Source of the DNA: a virus | Strand: one strand, 5' to 3' | Virus record (IMG/VR): IMGVR_UViG_3300030520_001134 | Location: 1 to 48,159 of that record | DNA length: 48,159 nt | Shown: positions 1,978-45,303 of the stretch, piece after piece | Position numbering within the stretch: position 1 is the stretch's first letter | Layout of the letters: each line of letters opens with the position of its first letter | Translations under genes and position numbers: made by a program | Notes under the pieces: model-generated | The model's database searches: none | What the model saw: only the letters and a program-made list of their open reading frames with translations | What the model was told of the DNA's origin: nothing

Positions 1978-4143
1978 TCAGTTGCCGGTCAGCGAATAGG
2001 TGAAGCCGTCCGCCCCGGTTCCGGCGAAGGTGAAACTGGAGCCGGAGTTTTTGGTGCAGGTCACCGCGTTAGCGGGCGTCGTGTTGTCGTTGGCGGCGCA
2101 GAAGACGCTCGTCGCCGACGTAAACGGTGCGCCGCCGGTCAAGGTGATCGTGGCGGTCCCCGAGGCCAGGGCGCCCGTCCCGTTCACCGTGTGACCGCCG
2201 CCTTGGTAGACGCCGGCGGCGGTGACCATGAGCGAGCCCGGAAGCTCGGCTTCCCAGGCATAGGCCAGCGAACCCGACCCGGTGCCGTTGGTGGACTGGA
2301 GATGCACCGCCTGGCCAGGCGCGATCACAATCGACGTTGTGCCGTTCGACGGGTTGATCAGCTGTGTGCCGTCGGTCTCGATGGTCACGGGGTAGATGCT
2401 GTAGTTGATGATCCACATGGGATCGCCGCGCCCGTCATGACCAGCTGTGCTGGTGATGGTCGGCAGGGCATAGAAGCAGCCCGGCCCGGGGAAGCCGACG
2501 TAGAACAGGCCGTTGTAGCCGCTGAGGCTGGTCGGGCTTCCGGCGCTGGTGGAGCAGGAGCCGCCCGGCCCGGTGACCGTGGCTTGGCCGAAGGGGGTGT
2601 TGAAGGCCCAGTGCGCACCCGCGCTGTAGAAGCTCATGCAGACGTCGTGCACGAGATTACTTCCACCGTGCGTGTAGTTCAGGTCAATGCAGGGGGCGCC
2701 CACGACGTTGTCGTAGGCGATGCCGAAGCCCTGGGCGCCGGGGATGACGCCCCTGTACTCGGGCGCGACGTTGATCGCCGAGGAGTTGTCGGCGTCATAG
2801 CAGGCATTGTTCGCCGAGCTGAGGAAGTGGTTGAAGGTCGAGCCGTTGCGCAGAACGATGCAGCCCTCCTGGCTGGCGGCCTGGAACCAGCTGTTCACCG
2901 TGTGCTCGGTGTAGATCGAGGTGTTGTTGGTCGCGCCGTTCTCCAGGTCCAGGGAACTCAGGTCGAGCTGGCTGACCAGGCCGGTGCCCTGGCCCACGGC
3001 GGCGATGCTCGGCTGCCCGTTCCAGGTCATCGTCAGCGCCGTCGAGGCGGTGGCCGTGATCGGTGGGCAGTTGGTCGATACGCCATACTGGCAAAAGCCG
3101 ATGGTGACCGTGCCGGCGCCGGTCGATCCGGAGACGGTCTGCACCACATATTTGAACCCAGTGGTGTAGCCAGACGCCGTCGTGGTGTTGTGCAGGACCT
3201 GGCCCACGAAGAGCTTGGTCAGATCGGCGACAGCGACGGCCGTCGAGCTGGCCGCCGGGGTGAGGGTTAGATTGACCGGCGTGGTGGTGCCGTTGGCCTG
3301 GATACGGCCGATGCCGGCGCCGACGCTGAGGATTGAGCCCGGCGTCGCGGTGAAAAGGTAGCCGTAGCCCCTGGCGGGCGCGGCGCCGGTGACGAACTCG
3401 TCGTCAAGGTGGAAGTTGCCCGGCTGATAGCCAGACAGCAGCTCGTCCGCTTCGTGGATCTCGCCGCTCGCGCCGGTGACCGTGACCTTGATCCGGTTAT
3501 GGGAGAACGAGGCCTGGGCCATGTTCTCGTCGACAATGGCGGCGTTGGTGAAGTTGATGAAATAGTTGTCGCTGATCTCGCCGCCGCCCATGCCCTGGCT
3601 ATTGGTCGCCCCGAAGTGGATGGCGTTGGTGAATCCGTTGAAGCCGCAGTGGTGGATATGGACGTTGGTCAGCCAGTTGGTGAAGGTGGCGGCGCCGGAG
3701 GAAAGTGGCGTGGTGTTGCCGCTGATGGCCTCGAAACCTGAGCCCTGGAAGACAGTCCCCAAGCCCGTGGTGATCCCGGCGTAGGAGCCGCCCGAACCGT
3801 AGGCGAACTGCCAATTGTCCATGATGGACGAGCCGGTCGCGAGGATCACCGGCGCCACGCATTCAAGGTCGATCTGCTGTCCAGGGACGATCGGGAGAGG
3901 TGAGGCCTGGGTGATCAGGGCGCTGGGCGCCTTGATGATCCACGACTGGCCCGGCGAGGTATTGGCCTGCTGAAAGCAGGCACGCACCGTTCCCGGCCCG
4001 CTGTCGGCAGCCGACGTGGCGATGCACGTGGCGGGTTGGGGGGTGGGCGACGCCGGCGCGAGCGCGGCCTCGGCCTGCCCGCGACAGCCAGCCAGGACCA
4101 GGGCAAGCGAAAACGCGCCCAGAAGGACGTTGCGAAGCTTCAT
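1978..4143 (-). CDS. Beta-helix tailspike-like protein with a lipoprotein signal peptide
   Basis: 721 residues. The N-terminus is a textbook lipoprotein signal: MKLR, a hydrophobic core, then the lipobox Leu-Ala-Gly-Cys with Cys20. The body (about 90-230 and 430-560) is rich in short Asn/Gly/Ser repeats such as GGGEISDNYFINFTNAAI, typical of right-handed parallel beta-helices (pectate lyase/tailspike fold). The last 75 residues resemble the beta-sandwich ends of many phage receptor-binding proteins. Its place between tail appendage genes and the holin suggests a virion tailspike, but such proteins do not normally carry lipoprotein signals. The alternative is a prophage-encoded outer-membrane lipoprotein that modifies the lysogen surface. 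Confidence 0.62.
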   Translation of the reverse strand: MKLRNVLLGAFSLALVLAGCRGQAEAALAPASPTPQPATCIATSAADSGPGTVRACFQQANTSPGQSWIIKAPSALITQASPLPIVPGQQIDLECVAPVILATGSSIMDNWQFAYGSGGSYAGITTGLGTVFQGSGFEAISGNTTPLSSGAATFTNWLTNVHIHHCGFNGFTNAIHFGATNSQGMGGGEISDNYFINFTNAAIVDENMAQASFSHNRIKVTVTGASGEIHEADELLSGYQPGNFHLDDEFVTGAAPARGYGYLFTATPGSILSVGAGIGRIQANGTTTPVNLTLTPAASSTAVAVADLTKLFVGQVLHNTTTASGYTTGFKYVVQTVSGSTGAGTVTIGFCQYGVSTNCPPITATASTALTMTWNGQPSIAAVGQGTGLVSQLDLSSLDLENGATNNTSIYTEHTVNSWFQAASQEGCIVLRNGSTFNHFLSSANNACYDADNSSAINVAPEYRGVIPGAQGFGIAYDNVVGAPCIDLNYTHGGSNLVHDVCMSFYSAGAHWAFNTPFGQATVTGPGGSCSTSAGSPTSLSGYNGLFYVGFPGPGCFYALPTITSTAGHDGRGDPMWIINYSIYPVTIETDGTQLINPSNGTTSIVIAPGQAVHLQSTNGTGSGSLAYAWEAELPGSLMVTAAGVYQGGGHTVNGTGALASGTATITLTGGAPFTSATSVFCAANDNTTPANAVTCTKNSGSSFTFAGTGADGFTYSLTGN

Positions 4144-4184
4144 GAGGATGTCCTTGGGGTCAGGCGCGCCAGGCGCGCCGGGCG

Positions 4185-5504
4185 TCAGTCTTCGAAGGCT
4201 GTTTCAAACGCGGTCCCGGCCAGGGGGGCGGGGGCATAGACCTGCAGGCGGCCGGAGAAGGTGGTGCTCTGCCAGACATCGCCGCGGGAGCCTGCGCCGC
4301 CCGGGCCCGGGCCCAGGGGGAAGACCGACGCGTTGGTGGGCGCCGCGCCATTCGCCGCGGTCCCGTCATCGCGAACGACGGCCAGCAGGGCGCCGGTGGG
4401 GTTGTGAATCTCGACATTGGCCCGCCCCGGGTTGGCGGGGATCAGGGCGATGCGAACATAGCCGGCGTAGGGGCCGGTCGTGAAAGCCGATCCCACCACG
4501 GGAATGTTCGGCGCCCCCTGGCTCCAGTCCGTCCCTGTCCCGCCGGCGATCGGCGCGACGACGACGGCGGTGTCGGTCCGCGCCGGCTTGGTCGACGCCG
4601 GCTTGACCGTTAGGCTGGCGCCGCTGGCGCGGTCCATCACCCCCATGGCGTTGAGGATCTTGACGATGCCGGCGACGCTGGAGGCCGCCAGGGCGACGGC
4701 GACAGATCCGGCGGTCAGGGCGGTGGCGCGGACCCGGACATTGGTGGCGTCGGCGATATCGTATTGGAAGACGCCGGCGGCGGTGATGGCGATCGGGTTG
4801 ACGTTGGCGGTGGCGCCGATCAGCGACCCGGCCCGGGCGACCCAGGAGACACCGTTGTCATAGCTGGCGTCGACTTCGAGCTGGCCGGTGAAAGCCGGCG
4901 TCCCCTCGACGGTTAGGGTCAGCGACGACTGGCCGTTGACCGCCAGGGCCACGAACGAATTGGCCGTGGCCGCGCCGGTCTGGAGCGACGAGCCGGACTG
5001 CCCGGCCGACGCCGCCGTATTGATGTCCGGAACGGTGATGACCCCGGTGGCCCGGGTGTCCGGGTCGCTGGCCATGGTGACCGGCACCGAAGCGGCCCGG
5101 GTGGCCTGGCCGTGGGCCAGCGCCGTGACAATCGCCGCGAGGTCGGTGTTGGCGATCGTCTGTAGGGCGGAAGTCGCCAGGCCGGCGTCCTCCGAAGCCA
5201 AGGTGGCCAGATAGCCCTCGATGGCGGTCAGGAGGGCTTCCATGGCCGCCTGGTTGGCGGCGGTAGCCAAGGCCGCCTGGGCTCCGGCGAGAGTCTCGAG
5301 GTGGCCCTGCATGGCGTCGAGGACCGAAATGGCGGCCTCGGCGTCGGCATGGGTGGCGAGCTGATCCAGCGCGGCGATCAGGGCCGCGCGCTGGGTCGTA
5401 TCCTCGACAAGGTAGGACGTCAGCGAGCCGTCGCCATTCTCCTGAACCCTCAGGTTCTGCGTGGCGCCGCCGCCGTCGCGGACGGCAAGATTGGTGTCGG
5501 TCAT
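4185..5504 (-). CDS. Tail appendage (fibre or spike) protein, putative
   Basis: 439 residues starting MTDTNLAVRDGGGATQNLRV, an opening I associate with fibre-like proteins of alphaproteobacterial phages. Residues 40-130 are helical with repeating Ala/Leu (possible trimeric coiled coil). The remainder is beta-rich and Thr/Ala/Val-rich, as in trimeric fibres. It lies between the collagen-like gene and the beta-helix spike in the region where myoviruses keep host-recognition genes. No enzymatic motif was seen. Function rests on context and composition. Confidence 0.6.
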   Translation of the reverse strand: MTDTNLAVRDGGGATQNLRVQENGDGSLTSYLVEDTTQRAALIAALDQLATHADAEAAISVLDAMQGHLETLAGAQAALATAANQAAMEALLTAIEGYLATLASEDAGLATSALQTIANTDLAAIVTALAHGQATRAASVPVTMASDPDTRATGVITVPDINTAASAGQSGSSLQTGAATANSFVALAVNGQSSLTLTVEGTPAFTGQLEVDASYDNGVSWVARAGSLIGATANVNPIAITAAGVFQYDIADATNVRVRATALTAGSVAVALAASSVAGIVKILNAMGVMDRASGASLTVKPASTKPARTDTAVVVAPIAGGTGTDWSQGAPNIPVVGSAFTTGPYAGYVRIALIPANPGRANVEIHNPTGALLAVVRDDGTAANGAAPTNASVFPLGPGPGGAGSRGDVWQSTTFSGRLQVYAPAPLAGTAFETAFED

Positions 5505-27953: not shown

Positions 27954-28228
27954 CAGTCTCTCCGGACCATGACGATCGTCTTCGTCCTGCGGCGAATGAA
28001 CCCTGGCGCTGGCGCGGGCTCGGCCGGCGCTGGCTTCCAGGTCCGCATCGGCGGCTGATGATCGGGCACGGGCGCCAGGCGCGCGGCCAGCCGGCGCAGG
28101 CGCCACACCAGGTCATTGCGCTCGACGAAGAAGGCCTCGGGATCGATCCGCTTGATCGACAGCCGGTTCAGTTCGCTGGCGATCTCATCGATGAGCTCAG
28201 CATCGTTCTTCACCGGCGCGGCCGTCAC
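27953..28228 (-). CDS. Small conserved-type phage protein, unknown
   Basis: 91 residues, GTG start overlapping the integrase stop (GTGA). The N-terminal half is helical (LIDEIASELNRLSIKRIDPE, then ERNDLVWRLRRLAARL); the C-terminal half is Pro-rich and basic. It lies between the recombinase and DUF3164 genes and is coupled to both. No function can be assigned. Confidence 0.6.
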   Translation of the reverse strand: MTAAPVKNDAELIDEIASELNRLSIKRIDPEAFFVERNDLVWRLRRLAARLAPVPDHQPPMRTWKPAPAEPAPAPGFIRRRTKTIVMVRRD

Positions 28229-29232
28229 AGGCCGACCTTGGAGGCGGCGTTGCGGGTGAACAGCTCGGCGTCGCGGATGTAGCCCATGACGGTGTCCGTT
28301 TTGACGTGGCCGCTCTGGCGCATGATCAGATCGATCTCGGCGCCATTGGCCGCCGCCTGGGTGATGAAGCCGGACCGCAAACTGTGGCCGGCGAAAACCT
28401 CGGGGTCCAAGCCCGCGCGCTCGGCCGAGCGCTTGACCACGTCGGCGACGACGGCCGGCGATATCGCCCGCGCGGCGATCCGCTGATGCCGGTCGACCGG
28501 CCGAAATACCGGGCCCGACGAAATCCCCGCGTGCTCGAGCCAGGTCTTCAGCGCGGCGATCGCGCAGAGCTTGGTCTTGCCGTGGGGAATGGCCACCGTG
28601 CGGCCGCGCCCGCTTTGGTCAGTCTTTGAGCGCGGCAGAAGGATCTCCGCGCCGCCGGCGACGAACCGCAATCGGGCGCCGCCGCTCAGGGATTTACGGT
28701 CCTCGAGCATCAGGCCCGAGATCTCGCTACGCCGGAATGCGCCGGCGAATGTCACCAGGATCAGCGCCCGATCGCGCAGCCCCGCCGTCGTGGCGGGCAT
28801 GCGCTGCAAAACCTTGCGCAGATCTGCGACGATCATTGCGCGCTTCTTGTTCGGCGGCCGGCCGCGCATGTGGCGGATGCCCGCCCAGACGTCGCGAAGG
28901 ATCGCGCTGTCCGGCTCGGCCAGGTCCTCGGCCAGGTGCTTCCAGCGGATCGCCGCCAGGCGCTGGCTCAAGGTCGCGACCGTCAGTCGGTCGGCATAGG
29001 CGGCCAGATAGGCCGCAACCGTCCTCGGGTCGGCAGGCAACTCCGCAAGACGTGCTTGCGCACACCAATTGACGAAGTGCCGCCAACCCGATTCGTAGGC
29101 TCGCCGCGTGGACGCCGCCAAGGCGGCGTCAGCGTATTCGGCCACCGCGGCGGCGAGCCGCTGGACCTCGTCACCGGTGGCCGCTGGAGCGAGGTCGCGC
29201 GCCGGCGAGATCGTAATCTCTGTGCCGGGCAT
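28225..29232 (-). CDS. Tyrosine recombinase (phage integrase / XerC-D type)
   Basis: 335 residues from the ATG at 29230-29232 (MPGTEITISP). Residues 25-110 form the SAM-like core-binding domain (STRRAYESGWRHFVNWC). The catalytic domain holds Arg167 or Arg168 in FAGAFRRSEIS, Lys203 in RSKTDQ, His283 and Arg286 in GHSLRSGF, His309 in SGHVKTD, and the nucleophile Tyr318 in VMGYIR; all six catalytic positions are present. It lies in the genome centre, co-directional with DUF3164 and structural genes, far from the att site marked by the serine recombinase. It may resolve multimers, invert DNA or be an older integrase. Confidence 0.9.
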   Translation of the reverse strand: MPGTEITISPARDLAPAATGDEVQRLAAAVAEYADAALAASTRRAYESGWRHFVNWCAQARLAELPADPRTVAAYLAAYADRLTVATLSQRLAAIRWKHLAEDLAEPDSAILRDVWAGIRHMRGRPPNKKRAMIVADLRKVLQRMPATTAGLRDRALILVTFAGAFRRSEISGLMLEDRKSLSGGARLRFVAGGAEILLPRSKTDQSGRGRTVAIPHGKTKLCAIAALKTWLEHAGISSGPVFRPVDRHQRIAARAISPAVVADVVKRSAERAGLDPEVFAGHSLRSGFITQAAANGAEIDLIMRQSGHVKTDTVMGYIRDAELFTRNAASKVGL

Positions 29233-29412
29233 TGATGTTCCAAGGTTTGCAGCAGGCCGGGCTTGATACCGGCTAGCGGGTCTTCCGAGGACGGGCGCAC
29301 TACACACGCGCTTCGCCGATCCTTGCGGAAGGACTACATGCGTGGCGCTACCAGTATCCCGCGCTGCTGTTTCGTGCCGGTCCGTCCCGGCCGCTGCTGC
29401 AAGATTGACCGG

Positions 29413-41477: not shown

Positions 41478-41485
<8 letters not shown>
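41189..41485 (+). CDS. Small protein downstream of the HerA-like ATPase, unknown
   Basis: 98 residues from the ATG overlapping the ATPase stop (TGATG). Helical: ALELLPRMLADASHWLSYEM, REHVAALCMAFVAVASRAMA, NWLRQIADHLERHG. It overlaps the DUF5131 gene by 8 nt. No family recognised. Confidence 0.6.
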
Positions 41486-42584
<1,099 letters not shown>

Positions 42585-42635
42585 GCCCTTTGCCACTCTT
42601 CCCGAAAATCGACCCTTTCCACTCAGGAGGCTAAC

Positions 42636-43454
42636 TTGACTGACCACTTTGCGAAGATCCGCGACTGGAAGCTGCTGTCCGGATCGCACGAGTTCCCCGG
42701 CGCCGACGGGGGCACCTGCATCAACGAAGCGGCGATCGTCGCGGCTGGTTTCGAATATCGCGCGATCGCGCGAGCTTCGGACTGCCCGCCCTGCTTCTCC
42801 GTTCCATGCTCGGCCTACGCGATCACCCTCAACGACGCGATGGACGATGACGTGCGGCAGGAGCTGCTCATGCCGTTCGTGCTGCGCCTGGCTGGCTCCG
42901 CTGACCCGGAGGTCGAGCGCGAGCGGCTGGAGTTCATCGCCGTCCAGAACGTTCGCCGGACCTTCCCGCTGGTCTACCGATACATGTCGAAAACGTTCAG
43001 CGACGCGGCACAGCTTGAGGCAATTGCTCGGCGCGCCGAGGACGTGAAAACCTTCGAAGAAGCCTGCGAGATCGCAGCCGCGGGCAGTCGGGCTGGGGCT
43101 TGGGCTGGGGCTTGGGCTGGGGCTGGGGCTGGGGCTGGGGCTTGGGCTGGGGCTTGGGCTGGGGCTTGGGCTGGGGCTGGGGCTGGGGCTGGGGCGTGGG
43201 CTGGGGCTTGGGCTGGGGCTTGGGCTGGGGCTTGGGCTTGGGCTGGGGCTGGGGCTGGGGCTGGGGCTTGGGCTGGGGCTTGGGCTGGGGCGCCGAGAGC
43301 GCTGAAACTACAAATCTGGCGTGAGTGCGCCGCCATCCTGGATGAAGCCCTGAAGATCGGGCGCCAGGCCGACACACTCGATCTTGATCTTGTGGTCGAG
43401 CGTTTAGAACGCGCTCGCGCCGGAAGACCGGCGCTCGCGCTACAGAGGTCCTGA
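42636..43454 (+). CDS. Phage protein with a 33-unit Ala-Gly/Ala-Trp repeat, Imm-5-like family candidate
   Basis: 272 residues, TTG start with a perfect AGGAGG five bases upstream. Residues 1-150 form a globular domain (IRDWKLLSGSHEFPGADGGT, CINEAAIVAAGFEYR, DDVRQELLMPFVLRLAGSAD). Residues 153-218 are purely Ala-Gly and Ala-Trp dipeptides, encoded by GGGGCT/TGGGCT hexamers. Residues 219-272 are helical. From memory, related phage proteins have a degenerate Ala-rich segment at this point, so the repeat seems to be a recent expansion. Function unknown. Confidence 0.78.
   Translation: MTDHFAKIRDWKLLSGSHEFPGADGGTCINEAAIVAAGFEYRAIARASDCPPCFSVPCSAYAITLNDAMDDDVRQELLMPFVLRLAGSADPEVERERLEFIAVQNVRRTFPLVYRYMSKTFSDAAQLEAIARRAEDVKTFEEACEIAAAGSRAGAWAGAWAGAGAGAGAWAGAWAGAWAGAGAGAGAWAGAWAGAWAGAWAWAGAGAGAGAWAGAWAGAPRALKLQIWRECAAILDEALKIGRQADTLDLDLVVERLERARAGRPALALQRS
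43092..43289 (+). repeat. Hexanucleotide microsatellite (G/T)GGGCT, 33 units, in frame
   Basis: 198 bp of GCT alternating with GGG or TGG and a single silent GCG. Higher-order pattern of the variable codon: GWGW, then GGGGWGWGW, then GGGGWGWGWGWW, then GGGGWGWG, so a 54-bp block has itself been copied. All changes keep the frame. Runs of GGGG separated by CT occur four in a row three times. Confidence 0.97.
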
Positions 43455-43456
43455 CC

Positions 43457-43723
43457 ATGGACCGGCGCACCGGCTTTTATCGAGGCAGGCGGTTCCCGTC
43501 ACAGCGTGCAGTCGAGGCGCCCCCGGGCCTCGAGCCGTCGCTGCACGAGGATGGCCTGCTCCAATCGGTGCGCCGGGCCGGCCGGGACGGATGCAAGCTC
43601 GGCGACGGCATCAGCGTCAGCACCGCCATCCGCCTCGAACTTCGCGGGCTGGTGACGATCACACGCGGCGAGACCCAGCGTGTCGTCGCCAGGGGCCCGC
43701 TCACAGAAGGATTGAACCGATGA
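43457..43723 (+). CDS. Small phage protein, possible HTH, unknown
   Basis: 88 residues. Basic N-terminus, then LHEDGLLQSVRRAGRDGCKL, and SVSTAIRLELRGLVTITRGE, which resembles the end of a winged helix with a wing strand. It overlaps the next gene by 4 nt (ATGA). No family assigned. Confidence 0.58.
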   Translation: MDRRTGFYRGRRFPSQRAVEAPPGLEPSLHEDGLLQSVRRAGRDGCKLGDGISVSTAIRLELRGLVTITRGETQRVVARGPLTEGLNR

Positions 43724-45303
43724 AGACCTCGACGACTGCCGTGGCCCATGATCACGAGCGCGACTATGGCGCGCTCCTGGACGCCGCCCGACGATCCTTC
43801 GAGCGCGTCACGGAGGGCGAGACGCGCCTCTTCCTCACCGATGCGAAAGACCTCTTCGCGACCTACCTCTCGAACATCCCGCTGGCCGAGCGTCAGGTTC
43901 ACAATTGCTCGGCCTGCAGGCGCTTCGTCGACACCTATGGCGGCGTGGTGGTGATCGCCGAGGACGGCCTGACGTGGCCCGTCATGTGGGACCCCGAGGG
44001 CGTCCCGGACTTCTACGCCGACGCCTTCCGCGCGCTTCAGAAGGCGGTGAAGCGCGCCCGCGTGATCTCGACCTTCCTGACCAAGGCGGCCACCTGGGGC
44101 CAGCCCCAGACGGGCGAGTGGGTCCACTTGGCCGTCACGCCCCCCACGGTGCTGGTCTACCGGGAGGGCGCCTTGAGCGCCGGACAGGCGATGGCCGCGT
44201 CCAGGGAGAGCTGCAAGACCGTCCTGCGGGCCCTCGGGGATTTCAAGGCCCCGATGCTCGATCAGGCCCTTCGGCTCTTCGAGGGCGAGCACCTCGCCAG
44301 GAGCGAGAAGTTCGTCGGCCCGACCCGCTGGCTCCGCGACCTGCAGGACCGCCCGAAGGGCCGCGCGGGCGAGAACCTGGTCTGGCGCGCTATCGGCTCG
44401 GCCCCCGAGGGCTATTGCCACCCGCGCTCGTCCGTCATCGGCCCGCTGCTGGAAGACATCGAGGCCGGGATGGCGTTCGAGGACGTGAAGCGCCGGTTCG
44501 ACGCCAAGCTGGGCCCGCTGCAATACCAGCGCCCCCAGGCCGCCCCGACCGCCGGGAATCTGAAGGCCGCCGAGGACCTGTTCGAGAGGCTCGGCCTCGC
44601 GCCGGCGCTGGAGCGCCGCTTCGCCCGGTTCGACGAGCTCGAGCTCCTCTGGCGTCCAGAGGTTTCGGAGGCGTCGAAGGGGAAGGGGGTGTTCGGCCAC
44701 ATCACCCCGAAGGACATGGAGCCCGGCCCCGCGATGTCAGTCCCGGCCGCCCGGATGACGTGGGACAAGTTCTCCCGCATCGTCCTGCCGAACGCCCGCG
44801 ACCTTCGCCTCATGGTCCCCGCGCGCGGGGCCTTCATCGCCCTCACGTCGGCGGCTCACGCCAGCGCGCCGGCGATCTTGAAGTGGGACGATGCGCATCA
44901 CTCGGGCGAGCGCAACCCGGTCGCGTGGTATGTCTACCCCGGCGGGAGCGGGGCGGATCAGTGGGGCCTTAAGGCCGCCTGGACGCGCGTGACCGGCGCC
45001 ACCCTCTTCCCGAACCAGTGGGGTCCGAAGCCGCAATCCTTCCTGGCGGACGGCGTGATCCTGGTCCTCGAGGGCGCTGTCGACTCCCACACGAGCAGCG
45101 GCAACGCGCTCTTCCCGGAATGCCTGAAGGCCGAGCTCCACGGGGTTCGGGCCGTCGTCGAGGCCTACTCGAAGCGGGCGACCTTGAGCGCCAGGGAGCC
45201 CGGCGCCTGCGGCTATGACCTCCGCCGCGGCCATGCGTCCTGCCGTCTCAGCGCGCTGGTCAAGGGCGTCTGGGATGAATACCAGATCGATCGCTGGGAC
45301 TGA
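43720..45303 (+). CDS. Large conserved-looking phage protein, unknown (527 aa)
   Basis: 527 residues. Helical N-terminus with LFLTDAKDLFATYLSNIPLA, then a Cys pair in a zinc-like loop (HNCSACRRFVDTYGGVVVI), WDPEGVPDFY, and a long alpha/beta body with RGAFIALTSAAHASAPAILKWD and a GVWDEYQIDRW end. I recall similar proteins, with the same NCxxCRxFVxxYGG phrase, in actinobacterial and proteobacterial phages, always hypothetical. It is the second-largest product of the early operon. No catalytic motif seen. Start overlaps the upstream stop (ATGA). Confidence 0.75.
   Translation: MKTSTTAVAHDHERDYGALLDAARRSFERVTEGETRLFLTDAKDLFATYLSNIPLAERQVHNCSACRRFVDTYGGVVVIAEDGLTWPVMWDPEGVPDFYADAFRALQKAVKRARVISTFLTKAATWGQPQTGEWVHLAVTPPTVLVYREGALSAGQAMAASRESCKTVLRALGDFKAPMLDQALRLFEGEHLARSEKFVGPTRWLRDLQDRPKGRAGENLVWRAIGSAPEGYCHPRSSVIGPLLEDIEAGMAFEDVKRRFDAKLGPLQYQRPQAAPTAGNLKAAEDLFERLGLAPALERRFARFDELELLWRPEVSEASKGKGVFGHITPKDMEPGPAMSVPAARMTWDKFSRIVLPNARDLRLMVPARGAFIALTSAAHASAPAILKWDDAHHSGERNPVAWYVYPGGSGADQWGLKAAWTRVTGATLFPNQWGPKPQSFLADGVILVLEGAVDSHTSSGNALFPECLKAELHGVRAVVEAYSKRATLSAREPGACGYDLRRGHASCRLSALVKGVWDEYQIDRWD

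Follow-up and report, generated by a model that had tools for sequence, protein, structure and literature searches.

We analyzed a 48,159-nucleotide stretch of DNA (hereafter the window), an IMG/VR virus record of a contractile-tailed, probably temperate phage that has genes for terminase, portal, major head, sheath, tape measure, and baseplate. Near its right end lies a gene encoding a 272 amino acid protein, in which a long array of hexamers separates a conserved N-terminal domain from a C-terminal helix (Table 1). The adjoining upstream gene, of the DUF5131 family, also matched the PADLOC candidate defence proteins PDC-M41B and PDC-M30B. The record carries two types of integrase, tyrosine and serine, on opposite strands. 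A promoter scan, for which 0.4 hits were expected, found none.

Table 1. Features at and around the array gene (positions are those of the window).
Feature	Position	Strand	Evidence
Tyrosine integrase	28225-29307	-	Profile match
Upstream neighbour, DUF5131 (PF07505)	41478-42584	+	Profile matches
Shine-Dalgarno sequence AGGAGG, 5 bases before the TTG start	42625-42630	+	Sequence reading
Gene, 272 aa, TTG start: N-terminal domain, array, and C-terminal helix	42636-43454	+	Open frame, homologs
Conserved N-terminal domain and leading helices (GGTCINEAAIVAAG...DCPPCFS...LND)	42636-43091	+	Alignment A4, 32 sequences
Array: hexamers GCT(G/T)GG x33, one GCGTGG, encoding (Ala-Gly/Ala-Trp)33	43092-43289	+	TRF, unit count
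C-terminal helix region (IWRECAAILDEALKIGRQ...), common to phage and chromosomal homologs	43290-43451	+	Homologs, structure model
Downstream neighbour, phrog_1735	43591-45303	+	PHROGs profile match
Serine recombinase/integrase at the contig end	46582-48159	+	Profile matches

As assembled, the array is composed of exactly 33 hexamers (21 GCTGGG, 11 GCTTGG, and one GCGTGG), whose in-frame translation gives Ala-Gly 21 times and Ala-Trp 12 times, and a single open frame spans the array and both of its flanks; this confirms the preliminary description of 33 such units in 198 bp inside a phage gene. TRF reported the array at 43090-43291 with a score of 313, compared with a top score of 74 among the remaining five TRF rows of the window. 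The preliminary description also proposed a superimposed 54-bp period and 11 to 12 evenly placed Trp residues. The period is exact in units 1-23, where units 10-23 repeat units 1-14 (a repeated string of 14 units was found in 32 of 5,000 shuffles), and is lost afterwards. As a property of the entire array it was ruled out by lag matches and unit-order shuffles: over the full length, 16 of 24 units agree at a lag of 9, fewer in proportion than the 23 of 31 at the best lag, 2, and the best-lag score was equalled in 5,234 of 20,000 unit-order shuffles. The Trp residues number 12, and their spacing is uneven (units 2, 4, 9, 11, 13, 18, 20, 22, 24, 25, 30, and 32). The longest exact internal repeat measures 58 bp, a length that longer assembly k-mers would cover. 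Alanine is encoded by GCT at 32 of 33 positions in the array vs. 6 of 33 in the rest of the gene. A continuous G-quadruplex-type run of 209 bp (43082-43290) covers the array and is the longest of three such runs on the + strand, the strand scanned; the GGGGCT unit resembles that of the known GGGGCC repeat, and the run may add to the instability of the array.

Profile searches of the encoded protein against Pfam (E 1), NCBIfam (E 0.1), and PADLOC (E 0.01) returned no family, and PHROGs gave no significant match, the only row being phrog_167 (E 0.029) over residues 146-201, mostly array. Imm5_like (PF21805) had no Pfam match to this protein at E 1, nor any in the records of 14 relatives, where the search controls were equally silent. 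In the N-terminal domain, His18, Cys28, Glu31, and Cys53 are invariant across the 32 sequences of alignment A4, and Cys50 is nearly so, which suggests a possible metal site. At one chromosomal locus (L044, positions 2191-4714; loci are designated here by L numbers) the Methylobacterium homolog is preceded by a DUF1007 gene and a NicO nickel/cobalt transporter gene, neighbours that, together with the conserved Cys and His residues, may hint at a metal-related role.

We use the name family 1 for proteins that combine a GGTCINEAA...DCPPCFS N-terminal domain with a C-terminal helix around a middle segment, an arrangement that the window protein shares. A search with the N-terminal domain identified 18 loci in viral contigs, and a profile search 23, partly the same; in bacterial genomes there were 148 relatives, of which 80 were kept, mostly from Methylobacterium and Methylorubrum, with a few from Microvirga, Acidisoma, Phenylobacterium, Hyphomonas, and others. 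Searched with the L002 domain as query, 11 plasmid records contained a match. A class-wide genome search matched 4 of 385 genomes, of which two gave weak matches and another was the genome that L019 comes from. Among named phages the family was found in a single gut phage record (L120, MT835534.1), in which a protein at about 2980-3469 has a diverged family 1 N-terminal domain followed by AAYAAADAARA repeats that the end of the record truncates; this protein is a possible bridge to other groups. No near-identical relative was found, matches having 51-72% identity over the matched part, and the identity of its N-terminal domain to those of phage homologs is about 46-66%. Apart from overlapping antisense frames, only three other family 1 loci (L003, L004, and L006) share a gene with the window, one each. 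At four family 1 loci (L008, L047, L085, and L101) pairs of copies lie close together.

Family 1 homologs align at both protein ends and differ in the middle. Where the window protein has AGAW, the phage homologs have AAYSAAAYA (L001), AVAYAAAYAD (L002), LALDLDLA (L003), VAVEAAVEVE (L004), LDLDLAVARARA (L006), AARAASAAWD (L009), AARAADAAR (L010), or ADAADAAY (L107), with repeat units that include AAYA, LALDLD, VAVEAA, and AARAASAAWD, and many of these arrays are built of DNA units other than GGGGCT (GCC-TAC, GCG-NNT, GCC-CTC-GAC-CTC). A strong array (TRF score of at least 100) is present in 11 of 19 phage members, the window included, and is weak or absent in the other eight (L005, L007, L008, L013, L016, L017, L101, and L105). 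The 76 complete chromosomal frames, mostly from Methylobacterium, include one strong array (L081), and five further frames are cut by contig ends. The middle segment of chromosomal homologs is rich in alanine (median fraction 0.375, range 0.07-0.49, 74 frames), and in two complete Microvirga homologs of 172 and 178 amino acids (L096 and L098) the N-terminal domain runs straight into the C-terminal helix without it. An Ala-rich segment thus often occupies the site in homologs, as the alignment proposed in the preliminary description was meant to reveal. The polypeptide had been called very unusual, which applies to its Gly/Trp flavour, not encountered elsewhere in family 1, and fails for the Ala-rich repeat as such, which is common. 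Since different repeats stand at one spot in many relatives, the site looks fast-changing within a conserved protein. In PHROGs, L107 matched phrog_21347 (1.8e-5) over its array, and phrog_3416 matched L001, L107, and L010 (0.058-0.61).

The model of the Methylobacterium homolog L044 is all-alpha, with a mean pLDDT of 88.7 and about 98 across the middle. In the model of the window protein the ends are well predicted, and the array, with a pLDDT of about 42-62, takes the form of helices at the position of the L044 middle. This low pLDDT speaks against a helical array, as does the fact that Ala-Gly repeats are poor helix formers; we still regard the segment as probably helical. Foldseek found no match of the chromosomal model in the PDB at E ≤0.001, and a match in BFVD to a viral protein (A0A067XQQ9, E 4.5e-4). 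A known fold was also sought with VIA-align and rejected: the best Z scores of the chromosomal model, 8.6 with a designed protein and 8.3 with a copper storage protein of Streptomyces, are at chance level for helical bundles. Profile searches of PDB sequences returned no row for family 1 and two insignificant rows for the second family described below.

A 21-base exact pattern taken from the window array matched seven viral stretches, and in two of them (L114 and L118) it lies inside a protein of another type, which we name family 2 (N-terminal domain YWENGKGCAVGC...LEDTIFEGLPN, C-terminal helix KLLELL). In a third (L113), an array at the contig start runs into a family 2-type C-terminal helix, the N-terminal domain lying off the contig. 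The remaining four (L115, L116, L117, and L119) have other or unclear contexts; for similar hexamer arrays at 1822-2103 of L117 and at about 3200-3330 of L115, the surrounding frames are not clearly homologous to family 1 or family 2. The search for family 2 identified 181 relatives, of which 80 were kept. Among the family 2 loci (L121-L136 and L157-L232), the members tried received no Pfam or NCBIfam name; phrog_3416 matched 2 of 12 members (best 6e-11). Most family 2 members seen have a variable alanine-rich tail, with a mean alanine fraction of 0.46 in 72 tails, and the plan of N-terminal domain, Ala-rich middle, and C-terminal helix is common to both families. The Ala-Gly/Ala-Trp peptide of the window is itself found in four family 2 members. 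AGAW/ARAW arrays are made from GCT and NGG codons in L113, L114, and L118/L121, and in L162, GCA-GGG and GCA-TGG units encode the peptide, which there also contains some Thr and Arg. One peptide is thus encoded by GCT hexamers in L121 and by GCA hexamers in L162, which indicates that it recurs from different DNA.

We rejected a shared ancestry of the two families as a finding. An earlier comparison that included the tails had given a probability of 43% (E 0.00024); with clean N-terminal domain profiles, hhalign scored 10.7, inside the range of 30 shuffled controls (8.5-17.5), and at the level of sequence the two domains are thus not detectably related. Family 2 has no fixed partner gene within 1.5 kb among its 12 largest shared clusters, which are copies of family 2 itself, antisense frames thereof, or neighbours in the L127-L133 phages; by analogy, this would be the pattern of cargo genes. 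Isolated Xanthomonas phages with arrays of this kind encode distant family 2 relatives (32% identity, E 6e-4), and in three of six Xanthomonas records this gene lies immediately downstream of one annotated as virulence-associated E family.

Family 2 also provides pairs that differ in their arrays. The array of L131 and that of L133 differ by 129 bp (43 codons), in frame, between two direct array repeats, while the sequences are otherwise identical at the array edges (93/93), in the C-terminal part (66/66), and downstream (810/811, one difference); the pair is less alike in the N-terminal domain (401/429) and upstream (747/844), and hence is not isogenic. Together with the 6-bp unit and reading frame of the window array, this difference upholds the earlier claim that changes in hexamer number keep the frame. 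L189 and L198 have N-terminal domains that are 96% identical in DNA and Ala-rich arrays that are dissimilar, and L205 and L228 contain tandem copies carrying different arrays. Array change can be slow too, as indicated by the Xanthomonas phages: the proteins of Xaf18 and KPhi1 are identical, two isolates from Mexico and Serbia have identical arrays, and the BsXeu269p/3 protein differs by an added alanine and two substitutions in the array and by one further substitution near the C-terminus. In three family 2 pairs, pN/pS was 0.00, 0.15, and 0.10 in the N-terminal domain and 1.16, 0.85, and 0.71 in the array, with the reservations that the first pair rests on 3 and 4 changes and that poorly aligned repeats inflate the array values; array values near 1 are compatible with relaxed constraint and with useful variation alike.

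Amid these differences, and with residue patterns that vary widely, frame and alanine content are held. Of 19 family 1 and 13 family 2 members, 27 genes gave a TRF row, and every one of these, in both families, has a best period divisible by 3 (for L105 the row falls beyond the middle segment). Tails of at least 60 amino acids were present in 72 of 99 family 2 frames, representing 66 distinct N-terminal domains at 97% and loci of 27-67% GC, and one tail with an N was left out of the frame test. In all 71 remaining tails the Ala-richest sense frame is the coding frame (median alanine 0.47 vs. 0.02 in the other sense frames), and this bias showed no significant correlation with GC (Spearman 0.16, P 0.19). 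Alanine is low in some tails, e.g., 0.11 in L187, and spans 0.11-0.51 in the 12 tails from loci below 40% GC. In family 1 the coding frame is the Ala-richest in 18 of 19 members and in 11 of 11 strong arrays, the exception being L016, which has no array. An antisense frame often equals the coding frame in alanine content, a by-product of GCC/GGC symmetry. The combined bias in frame and alanine argues for selection on the peptide and falls short of proof, since an Ala-rich ancestral segment could seed such arrays.

Contig ends add a further observation: among 91 contigs of family 2, 25 stop at a distance of 300-600 bp downstream of the motif, about in the array, vs. 0-2 in each other 150-bp bin up to 1500 bp on either side. 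These ends fit repetitive and population-mixed arrays alike, and failure to assemble repeats may explain them. Array borders were set as fixed offsets in the TRF, residue-pattern, alanine-frame, pN/pS, G-run, and chromosomal-frame counts, and the sets include some phages more than once, through duplicate contigs (among them L127-L129, L164/L165, L174/L175, and L123/L179), so that counts are not wholly independent. The in-frame 129-bp difference, the alanine-frame bias, and the contig stops together suggest that arrays change by slippage or recombination and stay Ala-rich.

Considering all of this, we lean towards the reading that the window array represents the present form of a middle segment that is hypervariable, Ala-rich, and probably helical, in an accessory protein of the phage. 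Its short units, each a whole number of codons long, would expand, contract, and recombine through slipped strands or repeat recombination, and because steps are whole codons, the length and the partner residues of alanine (here Gly and Trp) would drift with the frame kept and the protein not lost. Selection would retain the N-terminal domain and the C-terminal helix and would hold the segment Ala-rich, perhaps so that it still packs in the position that a conserved, helical, Ala-rich part occupies in Methylobacterium homologs. The variation itself may be useful, most likely by altering the surface presented to a host or competitor protein that itself varies. A role against such a target is our guess, which agrees with arrays that vary, with tandem copies, and with the absence of a fixed partner. 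The evidence for change over time comes from family 2, with its seemingly unrelated N-terminal domain, and we infer that the same process also acts in the window phage.

The main rival to a variable target is a neutral spacer, a permissive segment that only links two conserved parts and in which microsatellites are tolerated as long as the frame is kept. The array pN/pS near 1, the two Microvirga proteins without the segment, and the great diversity of residue patterns all fit such a spacer. A neutral array, however, would not be expected to be Ala-richest in the coding frame of every family 2 tail tested, to keep its alanine at loci of low GC, or to have a high-alanine counterpart in the chromosomal homologs. 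Arrays seeded by an already Ala-rich ancestor would weaken this objection, and we regard a mere spacer as rather unlikely. The array may also have been acquired by recombination from a family 2-type gene with the same hexamer instead of growing in place, given the AGAW/ARAW arrays of GCT and NGG codons in that family and alanine codons that set the window array apart from the rest of its gene. Codon uniformity would arise equally from one expanding seed, however, and the GCA-based array of L162 suggests that separate origins are possible, which makes acquisition improbable in our judgment.

Two further alternatives concern the DNA. Common short reads are shorter than a 198-bp array, the window is a virus record from IMG/VR, and family 2 contigs often stop in arrays, so the unit number, or the array itself, might have been made by short-read metagenome assembly. 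The two flanks, however, share a single frame and align with the two conserved ends of homologous proteins, no exact internal repeat exceeds 58 bp, and named isolate genomes carry arrays of the same kind; an artefact is accordingly very improbable. The DNA or RNA might instead matter more than the peptide, GGGGCT G-quadruplexes affecting replication or expression, as the long continuous G-run of the window would allow. At least 8 G-runs are found in only 6 of 72 family 2 arrays, which rules out G-quadruplexes as the purpose across the family, many family 1 arrays use other units, and the frame and alanine bias sits at the protein level, leaving this explanation with hardly any credibility for the window array.

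Overall, the preliminary interpretation of the array is partly supported, and a hypervariable Ala-rich segment in an accessory protein is the reading we carry forward. More tentatively, and with considerable doubt, phage accessory proteins with unrelated N-terminal domains may have converged on one plan, in which a conserved N-terminal domain, a slippage-driven Ala-rich helical array with reshuffled length and partner residues, and a C-terminal helix would form a template-free generator of diversity against a variable host or competitor target.

Several known systems resemble this arrangement in part. As in the contingency loci of Neisseria and Haemophilus (simple-sequence-repeat phase variation), the window array is a short tandem repeat inside a gene, of 6-bp units, in which slippage would be expected. 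Contingency loci mostly switch genes on and off by frame-shifting units, whereas units that are multiples of 3 would alter the sequence and length of the protein. Diversity-generating retroelements direct targeted hypervariation to one segment of a phage protein; the likeness lies in that single hypervariable segment, and the units found here point instead to slippage or recombination. In-frame modules that diversify proteins are described for the intragenic tandem repeats of Legionella (PMC2639597) and the PARCEL repeats of mycoplasmas, the latter an amphipathic domain often found in membrane proteins (PMC2996958). Whereas PARCEL has a defined domain, the arrays studied here have no fixed motif beyond their alanine richness, and family 2 has no fixed neighbour within 1.5 kb. 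According to the available part of a survey of low-complexity regions in prokaryote and phage proteins, alanine is the most enriched residue in those of phages, as in our arrays, and Trp, Tyr, Phe, and Arg are under-represented, unlike our arrays, which use Trp, Tyr, and Arg (PMC6821194). That part describes no hypervariable family of this type, and the longest phage region it reports, BFK20 gp39, is Gln/Pro-rich and looks unrelated (PMC6821194).

In-frame repeats that vary proteins are thus already known, and what appears to be new are phage families with a constant alanine bias and no fixed motif, of which we found no description in the open-licence literature. Because the arrays coincide with contig ends, such genes are probably under-reported. 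If the arrays are kept for their variability, phages would have a simple means of varying one protein segment that needs no dedicated phage enzyme, and it would operate in two or more families with N-terminal domains that are not detectably related. If alanine richness alone matters, the arrays would be natural experiments on rebuilding a protein segment from a microsatellite with the protein surviving.
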